From Caenorhabditis elegans (Eukaryota > Nematoda > Chromadorea > Rhabditida > Rhabditidae): a stretch of DNA of 64,000 nucleotides. Shown here in pieces: positions 5,290-17,615 of this stretch. Position numbers and translations under genes: made by a program. The stretch lies in NCBI RefSeq assembly GCF_000002985.6, contig NC_003284.9:7502001-7566000 (forward strand), written 5' to 3'. The number at the start of each line of letters is the position of its first letter. Position 1 is the stretch's first letter. The notes beneath the pieces were generated by a model. The model searched no databases, had not been told where the DNA came from, and saw only the letters and a list, made by a program, of their open reading frames with translations.

Positions 5290-5361
5290 TGGAGGTATGG
5301 GGAATTGAACCCCAGCCCTCTCCCATGCTAAGGGAGCGCTCTACCACTGAGCTATACCCCC
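5290..5361 (-). tRNA. tRNA-Ala (AGC anticodon)
   Basis: A 72-nt cloverleaf reads on the minus strand. The acceptor stem GGGGGTA pairs with TACCTCC (one G-T pair) and the discriminator is A. The D arm carries box A (TAGCTCAGTGG). The anticodon stem CTCCC/GGGAG encloses loop TTAGCAT, giving anticodon AGC. The T arm TGGGG-TTCAATT-CCCCA carries box B. There is no intron and no encoded CCA. An oligo-T terminator follows immediately. It looks fully functional. Confidence 0.96.
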
Positions 5362-6056
5362 GGCTAACATCTGATGTCAAATAAATGATGAAATAGATTA
5401 TCTTCGTTATGAACATTAGCGAACATAAATTGACTGAAAATAGTGTAATCCTAATGGTAACTTGTTTCATTAAAGCAGGGATAGTATTCTAAAAGTATTA
5501 TAAAAAATATTTTTTGCCATTAATCTACGGTAAAATTGGTTTTTGAAAACACATTACTATATTCTAAAATGTTTTGCACAGTAGGCCTGTCAGCGAGGAT
5601 GTCCTCGGCGGCAGGACGAGGACGAGCCTGTGCCCTGTCGTTTAGGACGAGGACGCGTCTTCGTCCTGCTGTGGAGAGTTTTGCGCGCACACACAGTGAA
5701 GCTAGAAAGCTAGATTAGCGGCGGACGTCCTCCGCGACAGGACGAGGACGAGCCTGTGTCCTGTCGTTTAGGACGAAGACGCGTCTTCGTCCTCAACTAC
5801 AGGACGCAGGACGTCCTAGTTCGTCCTATTTAACAGCCCTATTGCAAAGTATTTGAGAAAAAATTATTTTTTCTGAAATTGATAAACGATTTATTTTTAA
5901 AATTAGCTAACAGAAAAGCAAAATGCAAATAACTGAATCAGGAGATCAAAGCTCAATCAAACGTAAACATTTTAAGTAAAATCCATAAAATTGTAATGTC
6001 AAAGAAAACATTAAATCCAAGGATAAGATTTGGGACAAACGCCACACATTCGGAAA
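5362..6056. other. Intergenic between tRNA-Ala and the EB/CE4 gene
   Basis: Contains the GC-rich duplicated repeat at about 5600-5830 and otherwise AT-rich DNA, including the 3' UTR of the EB/CE4 gene. No gene is supported. Confidence 0.5.
5612..5793. repeat. Duplicated 56-bp GC-rich repeat ending in a palindrome
   Basis: Two 56-bp copies, 5612-5667 and 5738-5793, start 126 bp apart and differ at only about two positions. Each ends in a palindrome. In the second copy positions 5770-5793 form a perfect 24-bp palindrome (AGGACGAAGACG followed by its reverse complement), and in the first copy one base breaks it. Further GGACG/CGTCC words continue on both sides to about 5826. Composition is far more GC-rich than the surroundings. 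It looks like a dispersed nematode repeat rather than a gene. Confidence 0.8.
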
Positions 6057-7305
6057 CTATGCGCAAATTGTCCTCTCGCTCTTCCACTGAAACTGCACGT
6101 CGTAGGATTCTGAAAAATCAATTAAATTTATTGTTGGCAACATTTCATCAAAAACCTCGCATGGGTTAGCTTCATCTTTCATTTGAGGTTTGCACTGCCA
6201 CGAACGCAGACTTTTAATATTGTTAAGGTCCACCGGATTTCTCATGTAATCAATAATTTGACTTCCTGTGACCACGAAAACGTCTTGTTTTTGAACAATC
6301 TGAAAACAAAATGTATTTTTTAAAAAAAATGTTTGTTATTAAATCTCACGAATTTCAAAAAGTCTCTGAGAGCGTAAACTGCACCATTGTCTGGAAGATA
6401 CGTCAAAAATTCAGTGTCCAATGTTAATATAAATGGTGCACGGTTGGTTTTGTAATGGTTCATGAAGTTTCTCTGGAGCATTTTTGTCACAGAATCACGA
6501 GAGTCAAACGGTTTCATGGCCCGCGTTAATGTTTTGTACCATCTCGTGTCATTTGCCTGTATGTTTTGAATTGGAATTTCCCAAATAGCCTTATGGCTTT
6601 GTGTTGGACAATTTCCGTCACATTCCCAAGCTAATTTGTGATCTAACGTTTGTGGCCAATATGGGCTGCTGACCAACATTGAGTTATCAAAAGTAAAGTT
6701 GTTTTCAGACATCATTCGATATTGAGCATCACCTAAAATTTAAAACCAATTATTAAATAAACTTTTAAATTCTATTAAAATTTGTCACCTCCAATTTTAA
6801 GCTCCGGCGCCCGAGTTCCAATAATATGAGATCTATCAATAAAACTGAACTCTGCAAGTGTTTCACGCATTCCTTTTTGTTCTTTGTACCATCTCTCTTG
6901 AGTTCGACCGGAAAGATCCTCTCTTGTAATCGAATTCACACCAATCTCGTGGTTTGTACTATGTAGCCAAAGGGATTGGTCGTAATTGTTCCACTGATGA
7001 GATACAAAGAATGTTCCTTTGATTGCACATCCATTCGGATTGCGAATACTTCCACTGAACAAAGATTTCAAAGTGTTAATGATTCTATCAGTGATTGGAT
7101 CGTCGAAGGACAACATAACCATTTGGGGAACTTGTTTCGTGTCGAAGTTGTTTGGTGGTATTTTTCCAGTGCTGAAATTGTTTGATAAGTCTTTATATCA
7201 TTTCAAAATCTCTCAACCTAGTGCAGAAGCAACTGGGAAGTCTGCATGATCCGTCTCTCGGGCATTCGGTCAGAAGTCTTGAAGGTTGACGTCTTCTTGT
7301 TTGTT
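6057..7305 (-). CDS. Chitin-deacetylase-like (CE4) 3' exons of the EB-module gene
   Basis: Four exons (7218-7305, 6789-7171, 6350-6732, 6057-6299) encode about 365 residues resembling metazoan chitin deacetylase-like proteins. The landmarks are a Cys-rich lead-in (CPRDGSCRLPSCFC), the QVPQM-MLSFDD start of the NodB fold, HEIGVNSITRED at motif 2, GTRAPELKIGGD at motif 3, and a later CDGNCPTQSHKAIWE stretch. CE4 enzymes remove acetyl groups from chitin with a divalent metal held by one Asp and two His. The Asp pair is present, but the HSxTH-type motif 2 reads NSITR here, so both metal-ligand histidines appear lost. The first exon starts in phase 1, matching the donor at 7599 of the EB array, so these exons are best read as the long 3' end of that gene. 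A separate downstream gene is the alternative, but no start codon or signal peptide was found for one. Confidence 0.82.
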
Positions 7306-7446
7306 CTTGAAAAACATATTTGCTTGTTAAAGTCATGTGTGAAAAATGTTAGTATTATTTATTAAGCTTATTAAGTTAGTTTTGTTTTCATGCAAAATAT
7401 ACAAAAATATCGAAAAATATTAAAACGCAATCGATTAGGCAAGTCT

Positions 7447-10400
7447 TTAGACGCATTCTCCGTTAACCAGGTTAGTATTAAAAGTGCATTCACAAAGTCG
7501 ATCGCTTGAACAGGTTTGCGATTTCCCACAATCTTTATAACTTCCACATTTCTCTGAAATTAATCGTTGTTGTGTGTATTAAAAGGTTAATGTAATACTT
7601 TTTTCAATGTGACGAATCTTGATATTAGCTTCTCTATCAATTTCATCTTGCGGAGTTACACAGTATCCAAAAAAACAACTTGAATTTTGTTGGCAGGAAG
7701 TCGTGGCATTACACTTTGAGCCAGGGTATGCTGTAAAATAGTAGGTTATAAAATAGCAGGTTGCGAAAAAGATTGACAACTTACCCATCGAGCCTTGATT
7801 TGCATTTATGCTTGAAACGCAGTCAAGTGTTGAATCGGAATAGTTAGTTTTTGCGCAAACGCAATATCCATTTCTACATTCTGCTCCTTTACTGCAGAAA
7901 CTGGTGTGACACCTTGACCCGGGAAGGTTCTGAACAAAAGCTGTCAGTTTTGAAATTGTTTATGAGAATACTCACGGCAAGTTGACAAACTCCATTTATC
8001 ATTTCATGATCATTTCGGCAAGCACATCTTTTATCAATACAAATTGAACCACCTGTGCATTCAGAATCAAATGTGCAAAATGTCTTAGGATAAGATCTGG
8101 ATCGCACATTGTATCTGTCATTTAGCACACAGGAAGATCGGTCCGAGCTAGAAAATCATTACTAATTTATCTAATTATTTAGTCTTTTACAATTACCTCG
8201 GTTCATAGCCAGAATCACATAAGCAAGTTCCAATGAGACACGAAGATCCACCTATACAGACAATAGTGTTATCACAGCTATCACCCGGTCTAGCTGTTCT
8301 TGTCAAATTGTAATTATCATTTTGCGGGAAGCTAGGTGAACACACGTTATTGAGTACACCACTTCCCTGAGGACAGGAACAAATTGAATTGCTACAAGAA
8401 GATCCTCCAGAACATCGTTGCATGCATGGTTGATATGCACAACTTGGATCACACGTTTGTCCAGGGTTCACTAAAACATGATTGAAGCGCTTAGTTAAGA
8501 TGTTTAGTAAAATTACATTCAATAATGAAAACTGGAATGGCAGTTGTCACAGGTAGCATTGTGAATCTCACTTCAATAGTTGGTGTACATCTTCCGTTAT
8601 CTACACTGAACCCAACAGCACATTGACATATATTTTGATTACATGATGATCCTCCTGAATATTGGAAGTTTTACATAAAACATTGTTTCATTTAAACCTC
8701 TGCAAATCATTCCATTGTTTTGGCAGCTTTGTCCTGGAAGTGCATCTCCTAGATAGAAAACGCAATTAGATCCACTGATAACTCTGTTTGAAGGGCAGAT
8801 ACAATAGTTATTAACACATTGTGCATCATTTCTGCATGGTATTGCGTTTGGTCTCAAGTCGCACATTTTTCCAGGTAGTCCGATAACTTGAAAGTCAATA
8901 AATTATAATCTGACTGGACTCAACAATGACTTACATTGCAAATAGGATTGAGATTGAGCCGACGGAGCGCATCCATTTCCCACACATGGTGATGGTATCG
9001 CAACAGCTCTTTGGACACAGTTGCACTTATCAGCAACACATGTTTCAGTTTGAGCATAGTATCCCTTCAAAATCAAAATCTTATAAATATTTATTTTCTT
9101 ATTCTAAATCTTACATTTCTACACTGACATTGATCCTGAATACAAACTTGATTATTTCCACATTGCCGTTGGCAGTTTCCCATATCCGGCACAACATGTT
9201 GTACACAATTACACCTATCTCCTGTGCAAGTTTCTGGCTGTGCATAGTATCCCTGAAATTAGTTAGCGTTTAAATTAATTTTATGATAATCGTCATACAT
9301 TTCTACATAGACATTGATCTTGAATACAGACTTGATTATTCCCGCACTGATTCATGCATCCGCCACTTATCGCGTCAACTGATGGCTGGACACAATTGCA
9401 TCGATCAGAAATACAGGTTTCCTGTAGAACAAGATATCCTGATCGACACTGACATTGATCTTGAATGCAAACTTGATTCATTCCACACTGGCGATTAAGA
9501 CAAGAATCACTCTCAACTTCCTGAATGCAATTACATCGGTCTTGAAGGCAACTTCCAGGTTGTTGATAGTAACCCTAAATGAGAATAATTAGTTTATTTA
9601 ATTGTTAGTTTTGTTGTTTTTCTTACAGGTCGGCATTGGCACGAGTCTTGTATGCAAATCTGATTAGTTCCGCATTGTATATTTCCACAGTTAGCATTAC
9701 CCATATTTGAACATCTTCCGTTGATTGCTCCTTGATTATTAGGACACTTACATATACCATCAATACATTGAGAGTTTCCAGTACAAATCGTATTTGTCAA
9801 ATCACATGGATCGCCAGGAGATGAATAAGTGTTAATTGATACACAAGTTCCATTTTGTACTGTTTCGCCACCGGGACAAATGCAGACATTATTCGCACAA
9901 ACTGAATTTCCAGTACAGAGAATTGTACCATCTTCACATGCGCCACCAGGTGCAGCTGAAACATTTGAAATATTGTCTTAAACGCACTTTCATTATTAAT
10001 AATTGACAAATTAATACATTTTGAAAGGTAGTTACAACCTTAATACGTATTGTTTATTCAAAAATTTCACAACTAGCTAACTTTGCAAAATAAGGTTTAC
10101 TTACCTAATTGAATAACCGACAAGGTTTCACTGTTCACACACATTCCATTAACCAAATCATATCCAATTGGACAGTTAATTGTAGAAGCTGTAAAACGAT
10201 TTCAAACATTTCAAGATAAATTTGTAAATAAGCAAACTTACCGCTAACAACTCTGTTCACTTTCCTCCTGCCTGATATAGCTTTAACATTTCTTGATCGA
10301 ACGGAAGGTTCATAAGGATAGCATTCGTCCACATCAGCATCGTATTGGTCTTGGCACTGACAAAATGATGAAGTGCATGTGGCTCCACCCGAGCAACCAG

Positions 10401-13400
10401 AAGCAGTGCCACAAGCAGCACCAATTCTAGATTCATATCTAACACACGAATCCCCCTTTTTGAAATAGTCATCTGGACATTTGCACATAAAATTTTCACA
10501 AGTGGATCCTCCTACACAAAATCCTTTACGACAAGATTCTCCCGGTAAAGCAAGAGAAGAAATGACTGAATAACATTTTTGTGGTCAAAATTCAGAACGT
10601 TCTAGCTTACCGGACATTCTGGGAACGCATGAGAAAGAAGATTGCACAAAATTACTTGCACATTTGCAGACGTTTTTTAAGCATTGACGCTGGCTTTCAC
10701 AGTGACTGTTTCGGAAGCAATATTCTCCAAGCTTTGCCAACTTCTTCGGCGTGAATCGTAACAATTTCCGGTGAACATCACTTATAAATCGTTTTTCTGA
10801 ATGGGCATGCTGTTAGATGTTAGTTGTCAGATAGAAGCATGCGTGTTACATGTTCATAAAAATTATTTATAAAAACAAACTGAAAAATTTAAACCTCGTG
10901 GTGATACAACGCATTTGTTTTCTTTCAAGACTAGGGGCTCATTGCATGTACAAAGACCATCTTCACAGTGGGAATCTTTTTGACAGTGTTCTCCATACGC
11001 ACAAGATGTTCCGGGCTCAGCTGGAAAATAAGTGAGTCTGATTTCAAAATTTCAAATATTCACTCACCGAAAGTTATTGGAACACAAAATCCATATCTTG
11101 TGATACCAAGTCCTGGCTTGCATCTACACTCTCCTTTCACACATTGAGCTCCGGATGGACATTGATTAGAAGCCAGGCATTTAGTTGCTTAAAGATAATT
11201 ATTCATTTAGCTACAGCATTAGATAATTACCATCAATTTCACTGACACATTTATCCCCATAATGTACAAGACCTTCGGGACACCGACAGAAACCATTTAC
11301 ACAAACAGAACAATTTGTGCAATGCGTTTTGTTATCACACATATGCCCGGGTTTAGAAACTGAATAAAAACAAGGTTAATAACACATCAAACTAAAATAT
11401 AGCTCACGTCTCCATTTGTATTCTGGATTTGAAGTGATTTGTGGGGATGGAGACGAAGTTGATCCAAGTTTCATTGAAATAATAATTGGTGTTAAAGGGC
11501 GATTTGTAGAACTGGAAACGTAATTTTCAGGTAACGTCGTAGCTGTTGTAGTTTGAAGAGTCGTAGTAGTTTTCACAGGAATTGGCGTCGTATTCGATGC
11601 AGCTGTAGGAGTAGTATGTGCCTTGATCGGCTTGATCAATTTCTTAGATTCGAGAACAGTCAACTTCTCTATAATCCTTAATCTTTGACATTTTCCCTCG
11701 AACAGAGTGAATTCTTCTTTACAGAAGCAGATTCCATGAACGCATTCACTATTTCCACTACATTCTTCTCCACCCAAACACGATGACAACGGAGGAACCA
11801 CAACTAAATAAGAACACAAAAGAAATCATGACATGCTTGATATGGACAAACCTTTAATTTTTGCAACGTTTTTCACACAAGCTCCATCACTCTCAAAGAA
11901 TGTTTCAGGACAGGAACACACTCCCTTCTCACAAATTGCTCCCTTTGAGCACAATGATAGTTTATCACATTTATCGCCGAGTTCTACCAATTTACTTTCT
12001 TTTTCCGTTTTTCTTTCCTTCGGTTTTCCAGGTCTTGGAATACACTGGGTTGATCCGAATATTCTATATCCATCAATACATTGACAAACATTACGACGGC
12101 ATTGAGAATGGGCAATTTTGCAATGGTCATTCGATGTACAGATATGACCGAGAAGACCAGCTGAATAAACATAACAGAATTTCACAATTCACTGCACGCA
12201 AAACAAAAAGTACACATGGTGACAAAAATAGAAACTGATATGACATACATTTTACTTGTGACAAAGTTTCTGGTTCAGCTGGAGTCACAATGTTTGCAGC
12301 ACACTGTCCATTAATGTTAGTGTATCCGGTTCTACACGTGCAATAGTTTTCTTGGCATTGGGCATTTCTTTCGGCACATCGATCGTCACTAGTGCAAGTT
12401 TGTCCGAGTTGAACTGAAATAAATCACTTTCCATATGAAACCCTAATTTAATTTGAAAGCAAAAAAAAAACAAAAACTATCTTACCATAACTTCTACATT
12501 TTCCATTGACTGAAAAAAGTCCTTCTGGGCAAGAACATTTCCCAGAAGCACCACACATCAGACCTTCTCCACAGTCATCTCTTGACGAGCAAGGACTTCC
12601 TTCAATTCCTATATTTTTCTTAACACATATATTGTGCATTTGCTTGTAATCAGGCTGGCATTGACATACTCCTTTGATGCATACAGATTGTCCAGTACAA
12701 ATATCTTCAGGGTTGCATAGATATCCCGGAGTTACTAGAACAACAACTATTTTTGTTTTTTCTCTTGTCTCTTATTGATAAACTTAGCATCTAGATGGTC
12801 TTTGGTTTTATTCAAAAATTTTCAACTGACAAAATATCGAGTTTTTATTTTTTGCTATATGTTCACACCCTATCAAGTATTTTCAATGAGATCTTAAAGT
12901 ATGACTGAAAAACCAACAAAAGTTCGGCTTACCAGTTTTCCTCAGAACACAAACATCCATGCTGGCAACAAAGCCAATTCCACATTGGCAATTGTTATCC
13001 ATGCATGTAGAGTTTCCAAGGCATTGGTCTTCGTTGTTGCACGAGTTTCCAATATTAACTTTTCTTCTTTGCACGCACATTTTGTCCCGGATCATCATGT
13101 TATTTACACATTTGCACACGTTATTTTCACATACTGAGAATGGTGAACAGGCAACCTTTTCTGAGCATGGTTCACCTGGGGCAGCTGAATACAAATGATT
13201 TTAAAGATTTTATGAAGCAACAGGATTTTATAAAATTACCTGTTTGCTGATGCACGCATTTCTTGTCAATTGCGCTCATTCTGGGTGGGCATTCACATCG
13301 CCCTCTTGCACAATAAGAACCTCCCGTGCATCTAGATGTGATATCCGTACAGAGATCTCCTGGATAGACAAAAGTAAAACCCTTGCAGATCTAAACATGA

Positions 13401-15782
13401 CATTAACTTTTTCAACTCCAGAAAACGCATAACTTACACCATTGATAGAATTCTCTCCTCTGCGACAAGCACATTTACCAGAATCAGTGTTGCAATAACT
13501 ACCTCCTTCACAAATAATTCCCTTGCCGCATGTATCTCCTGGCTTCGCTGACACTTGATCGATGCAGATCTTATTAATTTCAACTTTTCCATCAACACAA
13601 GCACACTTTCCATTAACACAGACTGAGTTTCCGACACACATTTCTCCCATCGTACATCCATATCCTGGATGAGCCTTCAAACGTTCGCGGCACTCCCCTC
13701 CAATGACCATTTGAGATGCTTTCATACATTCGCATTTGTTGGTTTCTGGGGAGCAGTAACTGTGATCGACACATTCTTCTTCGTTTTGACAGGAAGTTCC
13801 AGGACGAGCTGAATATGCGTTGATTGAAGTAAAAGTAGAAAAGTAGAATGTTACCTGCTACATGTTCAATGCATACTCCATTTCTCGGAGTTTTACCTAA
13901 TGGACATACACATATTCCAGCAACACAGACTGATCCACCATCACATGTTACTCCGATTCTGACGCAAGCACTACCGATTGGAACTGAAAAGTATATTTTA
14001 AATTGATAAAAGATAATATTAGCAACAAACCAGTATCATTATCATTCTCTACATCGGTTAGTTGAGGTGAAGAGTTACGTGATTTTGATTGACTTGCGAA
14101 TCGAAGTCGGATTTTACGAATGTTTTCAAGGGCAGTGTTATAAGCATGCGCAGCTGGATTAGTGAAGGTAAAAAGAGTGATGAGGCATTAGACATTACTT
14201 ACCTGCTCGATTCTGCTGGCAATGACCATTGATCAACTCGTGATTTCTTGGACACGAACACTTTCCATTATAGCAAACAGACCCCTTTGTACATTTCTCG
14301 TTATTTTGGCAACTTTCATTAGGTTCACTTTCAACTTGAAAACAAATATATTTCACTAATTATAAGAAATCATGTATAAAACTTACTTGCTTGGCACTGT
14401 TCATCTTGAACATAAAATCCAGGAGGACATTGGCAGGTTCCACTTTGACAGAAGCTTCCAAAATTACATTGAGCATTAGCAACACAAGGTTGTCCAATTG
14501 AAACTTGTTTCACGCAACGCCCAGCAACTTCAACAATGCCAGATGGACATCCTTAAAATCAATTTTGATTTGAAATTCTTAATGTTTGACAAATTTCATG
14601 CATACCTTCAACGCAAATTTCTTTGTCAATGACTCTTTTGTGGGGAGGACAACCATGTGAGCATTTCAGTCCATCAAAGACAAGTCCATTCGGACACCGA
14701 CATGTATTTTTGTCACACACAAGACCACCGAACGACGCTTGACACTGTGAAGAGTAAATACAGTCCTGCCCGGGTTGCTTCTCTGAAAAAGTAAACAGCT
14801 TTATTTTCATCACTATTGGCTTCAAACCTGGGAGACATTCTCCTGTGACACCGGAGTAAACTTGATTGTTTGGACAGGATCTTCCACATGTTCCATCAGC
14901 GGCGACTGGTAAGTTAGGTGGACAAGTGCAGGTTTGCATAAAGCAGGTAGCGTCAGGATATGCGCCAGAGCATTGAAGGTTATGGGAACATCCCTTGCCC
15001 CCAGGAGGGAAAACTGGAAAAGGAGTGTAACTTGATTCTTATCCAATTATTTCTGAATATTACCTTCTCTACATTCCCCAATTTCGCTAATAAAAATATG
15101 ACCTCTTTCCTTACAGTCATTATTGACAAATGTGCATCCGTTACTGCTTTTCTTCATTCCATACACACATTCACATCTGAAAATTAATATGTAAAAAAAC
15201 ATTAGTAAACTCATCAAACCTCATTTTCAAGCAATACGCTCCTGGTTCCAGTGCGGAGCATTGTTGTGAGTATTGACAAGGCTCGCCCGGTTGTTGAACT
15301 ATAATATTCAAAACTAGAAAAAGAAACAAATCTTCAACTAATTATACCTGTCATGCAGACTCCAGCCTCGCGGATGTAAGTTTGACCAGCAGGACACGCA
15401 ACAGACGTTTGAATGGCTAAATTTTTTTATATGTAGTAGAACAAAAAAAATAAATATTTTACCTGTTGAAGATGCGATACAAGTGGTTCCTGTATTCAAT
15501 GCTCCCTTTACGCACTGACAAACTGAGTGGCAAATTGCCAAGGGATACCCTGCGCATTGATTATCATAGGAGCAAGTGAGATCTGGAGCAATTTGGTATG
15601 CTCTTGGCCCATCATAATTTCTCCTTCTGAAAAAGTTGCCTCGGAACGATTGGTTGATTGTTCGATGATCTGCCATTATCTCATTTTGTAACATTATTTC
15701 TGAAAATTTAAAATGAAACTTTGAGACTGTTTTCAACAGTTTTTTTACCTGCTAATATAAACACTAAGAACAATAACCGCAT
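7447..15782 (-). CDS. Giant secreted EB-module protein (array plus short 3' end)
   Basis: A signal-peptide exon (15749-15782, MRLLFLVFILA) is followed by 33 exons down to 7599 that encode tandem Cys-rich EB-type units, typically PG-x-C-x5-C-x-G-x-S-x-C-x5-C-x-C-P with a later Cys. Most exons begin and end in phase 1. An alternative last exon, 7447-7553, adds one Cys-rich unit and a stop, giving about 2,111 residues. Splicing from 7599 to 7305 instead appends the CE4 exons, giving about 2,441. A Thr/Pro-rich linker in exon 11408-11803 interrupts the array, and exons 9115-9627 carry a distinct repeated unit. EB modules are common in nematode secreted proteins, and an extracellular-matrix or cuticle role is an inference. 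From memory this may be F48E3.8. Confidence 0.85.
15463..15699 (-). other. Exon 2 of the EB gene, shared junction for both promoters
   Basis: It starts in phase 1 and accepts either the signal exon 15749-15782 or the upstream exon 15989-16159, both of which end with a single G. Its first half is non-EB: a basic stretch with RRRNY leads into the first Cys unit. Confidence 0.6.
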
Positions 15783-15988
15783 GGTTAAGCCGGTTCAAAT
15801 TTTTAAGTGAATTGAAAAGCTCAAAATGAAAACGAAAAGTGTTGGTTGCAAAAGACAGAACTTGAGAATCATATGACAAGAGAGCAGTTATCTTTCATTT
15901 TTATAATGATTGATAGACATGGTCCCTGCCGGCATGCATGACTCATCAGCGGCTGTTTCTACGTTATGATTTTTTTATCGCTTCTTAC

Positions 15989-17615
15989 CATTTCGAATTG
16001 GCGGGTGATGTGCTGCTTGCTGATTTGAAACACAGGTCTGCTGAATTGCCAAAAAACCAACAGGGCACACACAGTTTCTATTAACATCGCAGTTAGCACC
16101 AGGAAATCCCTTATTGCATTGTATGGAGTCTTCACATCCATGCTGACCAGGGTAGATTACTAAAAAACAAGCTATGTCGTATTACAAGTGTTTTTTTTTA
16201 AATTTAGTTTTTTTTTTCAATTCGAGTCAAAAGACGATGTTAGTTAGCGTGTACGGTTTGTCCAAACAGATCCATTAGAAATTTAGAAAATATAAGCATT
16301 TAATAAATTTAAATATTCAGAGCTTAGAACCATAATACGGAAGTCTACATCAAATATTTTAATTAAAAAAACAGGATCAAAAAATATTTTACTTTTGCTC
16401 TTTACTTTTTTAATGTAGAAGTTGAGAATTATTCCCGATAAATTGAGAATTATTCCCGATATGATATCCACTGCAAATTAAAAAATTATGAATGATATTT
16501 TTTGTAAATAAACTGATAGTGGAAACTGTAAAATAGTGTATTTACTGAAATATAAACTATTTAAATATCAAAAATCCATAAATTGTTGAGTATTTTGCCA
16601 CGTGTATTCAATTTTGAATTTTGTCAAATAAAACTTTCAGTGAAACATTCTTATAAATTTAGAATACTTTTCTCAGTCGTAGATTGATTTCAATAAATTG
16701 TATAACTTGTAATTTTTATTTTGCTTTTTATATGCTCATAAAAAATTATCACCGTTGTTGATTTTGACGAACTACACTTGTTTCATATGTTTTGTGACTA
16801 GAAGTTAACCCGAACATTGATAAAGTCAACAATTTACATTTCTTCATCCTGTGCCACTTGCATTAGAACGTATTTGTCAACAGATTATTATTCCCAAACA
16901 GTTAACTTATTTGGCTACTTGAATCAGACCGTGAAAGGAAAAGGAAAAGAAGAAAGATGAGCTGTCCACTTGCTCTCACTAACTCACCCGGTTTGCATTG
17001 GGTGCCGACATCAACATGAGAGCTGCGGCACATACAAATTGAGAACGAAGAGCAAAACTCTCCGGGTCCGCGGCAATCGCTGTCGATACGACACTGCTGG
17101 GTGAGTGTCTTACCTGAAAAAAAGGGAAATAAAGGAAAAAAGAAGAAGACGAATGTAAAAAAGGAGAATATGAATGAGATTGGATAGCTCTCATTTTCAA
17201 CTCGAGTATTTTCGAATACGCAATGACCTGGCTTTTTCCATATTTTTTTGGTCGATTCCGGTTTGAACTAAACCACTTACTTTTCTCAGTTACACAGACT
17301 CCATCAACGGCTTTGTAAAAACTTGCACACATGCAAATTTCATCAATACATTCGGTATTTTCCGAAATACATCTTCGTTTTTCATTCATCAAACAAGGTT
17401 GACCAATCAGGCCATTAGTCTTTTTTATTGAATGCACGTCATTTGTCAAAATGGCTGAAAATATTGACTTGATTAAACATTGAAATTTTGATTAAACACT
17501 GAAAATAACGCAAGCTTCAACTTTCTATTGTTGTCAGTCTTAACTGAAATCAATTTTCAAAAATAAAATTAAACTGACCTATTATGAAATAAAATAACAA
17601 AAGTCGCATCACCAT
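15989..17615 (-). CDS. Alternative 5' exons of the EB-module gene (second signal peptide plus EB units)
   Basis: Four exons are visible: 17579-17615 (MVMRLLLFYFII, a signal peptide), 17281-17454 (a Cys unit starting GQPCLMNEKRRC), 16988-17113 (starting CRIDSDCRGPGEFC) and 15989-16159 (starting PGQHGCEDSIQC). Each joins the next in phase 1. The last ends in phase 1 with a GTAAG donor and can splice directly into exon 15463-15699, giving an open product of about 2,600 residues with the CE4 tail. No stop codon or terminal exon of its own was found. An alternative upstream promoter for the same gene is therefore the simplest reading. A small independent EB gene with an unseen last exon cannot be excluded. 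Confidence 0.7.
16421..16460. repeat. Short tandem duplication of about 20 bp
   Basis: TTGAGAATTATTCCCGATA occurs twice in immediate succession within an AT-rich intron of the EB gene's 5' region. A small local duplication with no coding role seen. Confidence 0.7.

Follow-up and report, generated by a model that had tools for sequence, protein, structure and literature searches.

We consider it probable that a gene on the minus strand of the 64,000-nt window (the whole stretch of DNA analysed) encodes an F48E3.8-type secreted array of EB modules followed by an insect-type CE4 (NodB) domain, and that its transcript is spliced in two ways at a weak donor at position 7599. One splice would lead to a small terminal EB exon (7553-7447), the other to the CE4 domain. 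The DNA itself shows that both reading frames are open, that the small exon encodes an EB unit, that homology to CE4 proteins extends over the full length of the domain, and that there are two possible first exons. The CE4 tail has probably lost catalysis, which is more surprising than the EB-only end.

Gene model, first exons and identity

We rebuilt the gene from the raw sequence, using gene-finder exons as seeds only for 17615-7700 and checking and correcting them by eye. The resulting model, on the minus strand, consists of an EB-module array encoded by 33 shared exons (15699-15463 to 7730-7599) followed by two possible ends. Its introns are short, with TTTCAG-type acceptors; 35 out of 38 are below 100 nt, and the longest is the 293-nt intron from 7599 to 7305. 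Pfam EB (PF01683, cut-off 24.3 bits) matches two segments of the array with 190 and 460 bits. A mucin-like Thr/Ser/Pro-rich linker of about 85 aa (window about 11400-11660, minus strand) interrupts the array between modules.

The CE4 end comprises five exons. The first (7305-7218, acceptor TTTTTCAAG) is followed by exons 7171-6789, 6732-6350, 6299-6156 and 6109-6011, with a TAA stop at 6013-6011 and an AATAAA 3' of it (5895-5890). The first-pass annotation ended the coding sequence at 6057; this is wrong, and arises only when the last intron is kept and read through. With 6156 spliced to 6109, the model has a C-terminus of CGVCPKSYPWI with the stop ending at 6011, and this aligns with CPVNYPWL of silkworm CDA1 (BmCDA1). 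A GACGAGGACG-rich unit that has inverted-repeat arms is present just 3' of the CE4 end (window 5597-5810) as two direct copies of 71 nt each, which are 93% alike, and ARAGORN places a tRNA-Ala (anticodon agc) at 5290-5361 of the window on the minus strand. Neighboring genes encode LIM-homeodomain, SPFH/Band 7, cation-efflux and ligand-gated-channel domains; a globin match of 21.2 bits falls just below its cut-off of 22.0.

Two first exons are possible, both with signal-peptide-like sequences as judged from hydropathy alone. In the gene model, first exon A (17615-17579, start codon at 17615, MVMRLLLFYFIIA) is followed by the upstream EB exons 17454-17281, 17113-16988 and 16159-15989 (Pfam EB 58 bits), the last of which joins exon 15699 in phase 1. 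First exon B (15782-15749, start codon at 15782, MRLLFLVFILA) also enters exon 15699 in phase 1, and a TATAAA lies 123 nt 5' of its start (15905-15900). The first-pass annotation had taken 17615 as the start, which holds as a possible start, but it missed the second one, which is probably the annotated start of F48E3.8. Reading through the donor at 15989 gives NGKKR and a stop (window 16159-15975, minus strand), so the head of start A may be a separate short EB product or gene (17615-15975). Multiple PHA-4 sites have been reported upstream of F48E3.8; counts of TRTTKRY showed no overall enrichment in the regions scanned here, with 1 site observed vs 0.9 expected in 15988-15783, 2 vs 2.1 in 18115-17616, 5 vs 5.9 in 19000-17616, and 6 vs 3.5 in 16987-16160.

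Start B with the CE4 end (15782-15749, 33 array exons and 5 CE4 exons) gives a protein of 2441 aa, with VMLSFDD at residue 2124 and a gene span of 9.77 kb (15782-6011). According to the available text of Heustis 2012 (PMC3396651), F48E3.8 has 2444 aa, NodB at 2124-2277 and a gene of about 9.7 kb, while orthologues in its table have 2523, 2545 and 2693 aa. Since length, NodB position and gene size agree with the F48E3.8 orthologue group, the most likely identity of the gene is F48E3.8 of C. elegans, or else an orthologue very near to it; the C-terminal CE4 is a further likeness. The gap of 3 aa remains: within 30 nt of the junctions the frame survives only two changes, +9 nt at the exon that ends at 14203, where the donor is weak, and +6 nt at one other place. 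The same text, figure aside, is in tension with the motifs: there, SFDD is a feature of the C54G7.3 orthologues and NSISH that of Caenorhabditis (for F48E3.8, TFDD and NSISH), and here we read SFDD and NSITR. Because of this difference, our use of the name F48E3.8 is founded on the protein's length, NodB position and architecture and not on the motif text. By elimination only, and going by the part of the 2022 eLife paper available to us (PMC9629831), the gene is probably CHTS-1 of that paper.

Two possible ends from one weak donor

The first-pass annotation had proposed a donor at 7599 in phase 1 that could be joined in frame to 7553 or to 7305, and all of this agrees with the gene model, down to the exact coordinates. 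The donor (exon end AAA, followed by GTATTACA) and the acceptors were scored with matrices trained on the other junctions of the model (41 donors and 40 acceptors). At 2.2 bits the donor is weak: it outscores just one of the 41 others in the model, and 26% of the GTs on the strand reach its score. The acceptor at 7553 has 5.0 bits (5.01), above 6 of the 40 model acceptors, and splicing to it removes an intron of 45 nt, a usual size for the model. The acceptor at 7305 has 7.3 bits, above 16 of the 40. The donor at 7218 of the first CE4 exon is the weakest in the model (-3.2 bits); the CE4 homology nonetheless spans that junction.

As was also proposed, the two acceptors would lead to different products. 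Exon 7553-7447 adds one six-Cys EB unit and then a TAA stop (...HIEKKKCGSYKDCGKSQTCSSDRLCECTFNTNLVNGECV plus stop), giving 2111 aa from start B or 2269 aa from start A. Exon 7305-7218 opens a complete CE4 domain of insect type (...HIEKKQTRRRQPSRLLTECPRDGSCRLPSCFCT, then CE4); from start A this form has 2599 aa. The EB-only form contains 257 cysteines and the form with CE4 263; cysteine parity was considered as a discriminator between the two ends and rejected, both counts being odd.

The small EB exon is not a chance occurrence. Its cysteines are spaced C-x5-C-x5-C-x5-C-x-C-x10-C, a pattern found 33 times in the six-frame ORFs of at least 20 aa in the window. Of these occurrences, 32 fall in ORFs containing exons of the model, and the one in exon 7553-7447 is the only other. 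Shuffled controls gave 3 matches in total over 100 pair-shuffled windows. When the 293-nt intron was dinucleotide-shuffled 20,000 times, no shuffle reproduced the combination of an acceptor scoring 5.0 bits or above (a threshold set at the real site's own 5.01), a six-Cys unit in phase with it and a stop codon, and 884 had an open frame of at least 30 codons. The exon has a codon score of 0.36 per codon, within the range of the array exons (0.02 to 0.56; first exon -0.69), a value matched by 5.9% of random open stretches. By itself it scores weakly against a profile HMM of its own array (4.8 bits, E 3.3), in an alignment that spans all six cysteines and bears an 11-bit composition correction, and its 14 bits against Pfam EB are under the cut-off. 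Scored against the other modules, it averages higher than only 3 of 36, which places it among the more divergent ones.

The stretch between this exon and acceptor 7305 (7446-7306, 141 nt) carries several short motifs on the minus strand. An AATAAA (7363-7358) lies 84 nt after the EB stop, with about 0.26 expected per 141 nt at the density of the strand. There is one TGCATG (7394-7389), a motif of RBFOX type (PMC3585155), for which 0.03 are expected in a stretch of this length, and there are two CTAAC, of STAR-protein type (PMC3469465, available text), at 7379 and at 7352, the latter within a TACTAAC at 7354 (together 7379-7348; 0.09 expected). As regulatory elements these are speculative: they were spotted post hoc, after the sequence had been read, and are a lead only. 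TGCATG together with two CTAAC occurs in 6 of 3193 overlapping 141-nt windows, several of the 6 being attributable to the stretch itself. In C. elegans unc-60, as described in the available part of PMC3469465, the choice of alternative downstream exon sets likewise depends on tissue and involves CUAAC elements; its alternative end differs in lying in the first intron and in having a UGUGUG element, and no GTGTG was found in 7446-7306.

We propose that splicing over 45 nt to 7553-7447, with cleavage via the AATAAA at 7363, would produce the EB-only protein, and that splicing over 293 nt to 7305 would excise the EB exon with its poly(A) signal and produce the EB-CE4 protein. Use of both ends in vivo would follow from this scheme, and from what can be read in the sequence we lean towards the EB-only end being used. 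The earlier proposal of one gene making a matrix protein with or without the CE4 tail stands as the best reading of the sequence; against it, all three predicted F48E3.8 transcripts carry the PDA (deacetylase) domain, according to the available text of PMC3396651.

Those 2012 predictions also speak for a different reading, which we regard as somewhat unlikely: that only the EB-CE4 end is used, exon 7553-7447 being left over from a former 3' end or else included too rarely to matter. The divergence of its EB unit, weak by both HMM and Pfam, and the position of 7305 as the best acceptor in the intron are in keeping with a relic, but the exon retains every one of its six cysteines and stays open, its acceptor is usable, its intron has the usual size and a poly(A) signal follows; an unused relic should decay. 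Quite improbable is a role of the exon as a poison exon or micro-exon in longer transcripts, in which its stop or a part of it would be included 5' of CE4 and lower or modify CE4 output. GTs do exist in or after the exon at 7468 (3.8 bits), 7542 (3.0 bits, phase 1) and 7403 (2.1 bits), yet they are as weak as 7599 or only slightly better, below nearly all model donors, and use of 7468, being a phase 0 donor, would throw CE4 out of frame. It is hardly credible that there are two genes, one for the EB array with its end at 7447 and one for CE4 with its own promoter or with operon-type trans-splicing at 7305 or slightly 5' of it: the AATAAA at 7363 does sit 57 nt 5' of acceptor 7305 and an in-frame ATG occurs at 7336, but on inspection the product from this ATG (MTLTSKYVFQEQ...) lacks a hydrophobic leader, exon 7305-7218 contains no ATG in frame, and in the available text of PMC3396651 the exon boundaries of the PDA domain are EST-verified in C. 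elegans and a 2444-aa protein spans both parts. No separate secreted CE4 gene is thus visible here.

The CE4 tail

The tail had been called deacetylase-like, and by homology it is: it aligns with silkworm CDA1 (5ZNS) over nearly the whole length at 209.8 bits, and with silkworm CDA8 (5Z34) at 135.2 bits. The alignment with the silkworm enzymes (CDA1, 5ZNS and 5ZNT; CDA8, 5Z34) runs from LPxCFC to the C-terminal CPxxYPW. What the label does not convey is that the zinc-binding histidines are gone. The domain has diverged, and the Pfam score for CE4/NodB (PF01522), 20.1 bits against a cut-off of 23.1, concurs.

In BmCDA1, according to the available part of PMC6463723, zinc is bound by Asp206, His261 and His265, the base is Asp205, supported by Arg306, and motif 5 is YFH. 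Here His261 is replaced by Asn and His265 by Arg (HSITH reads NSITR), so two of the three zinc ligands are gone, and in motif 5 YFH reads TLD, with His replaced by Asp. Both Asp residues of SFDD are kept, as is the Arg (RAPY reads RAPE). The set expected of an active CE4 enzyme (Asp-His-His zinc triad, base Asp and motif-5 His) is incomplete, the triad reading Asp-Asn-Arg, whereas the silkworm enzymes keep Asp-His-His and have no EB modules. The altered motifs sit in exons 7171-6789 and 6732-6350 of the minus strand. Because both zinc-binding histidines and the motif-5 histidine are lost, the CE4 tail is probably a pseudo-deacetylase and maybe no enzyme at all, a point that is new here.

In the available text of PMC3396651, Heustis et al. 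remarked that motif 2 is unusual and still inferred retained activity. Deacetylase activity was shown there in worm extracts, and that text does not assign it to the F48E3.8 protein.

Known relatives and the pharyngeal lining

The first-pass annotation considered the EB-rich CE4 architecture little studied. The EB-CE4 gene itself is already published as F48E3.8, with pharyngeal expression and RNAi, in 2012; what stands is that no description of its EB-only end was found in the literature examined, including the available text of PMC3396651, and that a literature search on EB modules, chitin and nematodes found nothing. A pattern scan for relatives in other genomes gave 9 matches, none of them a relative, and a viral scan gave none.

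The family already includes a CE4 gene known to give a product that lacks CE4, the paralogue C54G7.3/lgx-1, for which transcripts devoid of the PDA domain are reported: one of two predicted transcripts is of this kind in the available text of PMC3396651, as is a major C. elegans lgx-1 transcript according to a 2010 thesis cited in the available part of PMC9605236. This nematode gene is alike in having transcripts with or without the CE4 domain, but differs in its 1876 aa, 13.3 kb, intron of about 4 kb and chitin-binding domain (PMC3396651). PxCDA3 of Podosphaera xanthii, in the available part of PMC9605236, is another CDA gene for which alternative splicing gives a protein without the deacetylase domain; it is fungal, and a 22-nt deletion leads to a frameshift stop in place of an alternative terminal exon.

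Both proteins of the gene analysed here would be bound for the chitin lining of the pharynx, where the CE4 tail, having lost its zinc-binding histidines, may tether the protein to chitin instead of deacetylating it. We tentatively suggest, as a rather unlikely possibility, that the pharyngeal lining receives a giant EB matrix protein in which a dead CE4 domain, serving as a chitin-binding tether, is present or absent according to a splice/poly(A) switch, and that this switch is perhaps under the control of RBFOX acting at TGCATG (7394) and of STAR proteins acting at CTAAC (7379 and 7352). With CE4 as a tether, the switch would therefore set the share of the array that is anchored, and not chitin deacetylation.

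In the published view, the pharyngeal cuticle of the worm is a chitin-chitosan matrix and F48E3.8 is one of two putative makers of chitosan. Should the CE4 domain of F48E3.8 be unable to bind zinc, this role becomes doubtful, and lgx-1 (with the reported motif NSISH) or another enzyme would be needed. If the EB-only end is used, a single gene would supply the matrix both with and without a chitin-facing domain.
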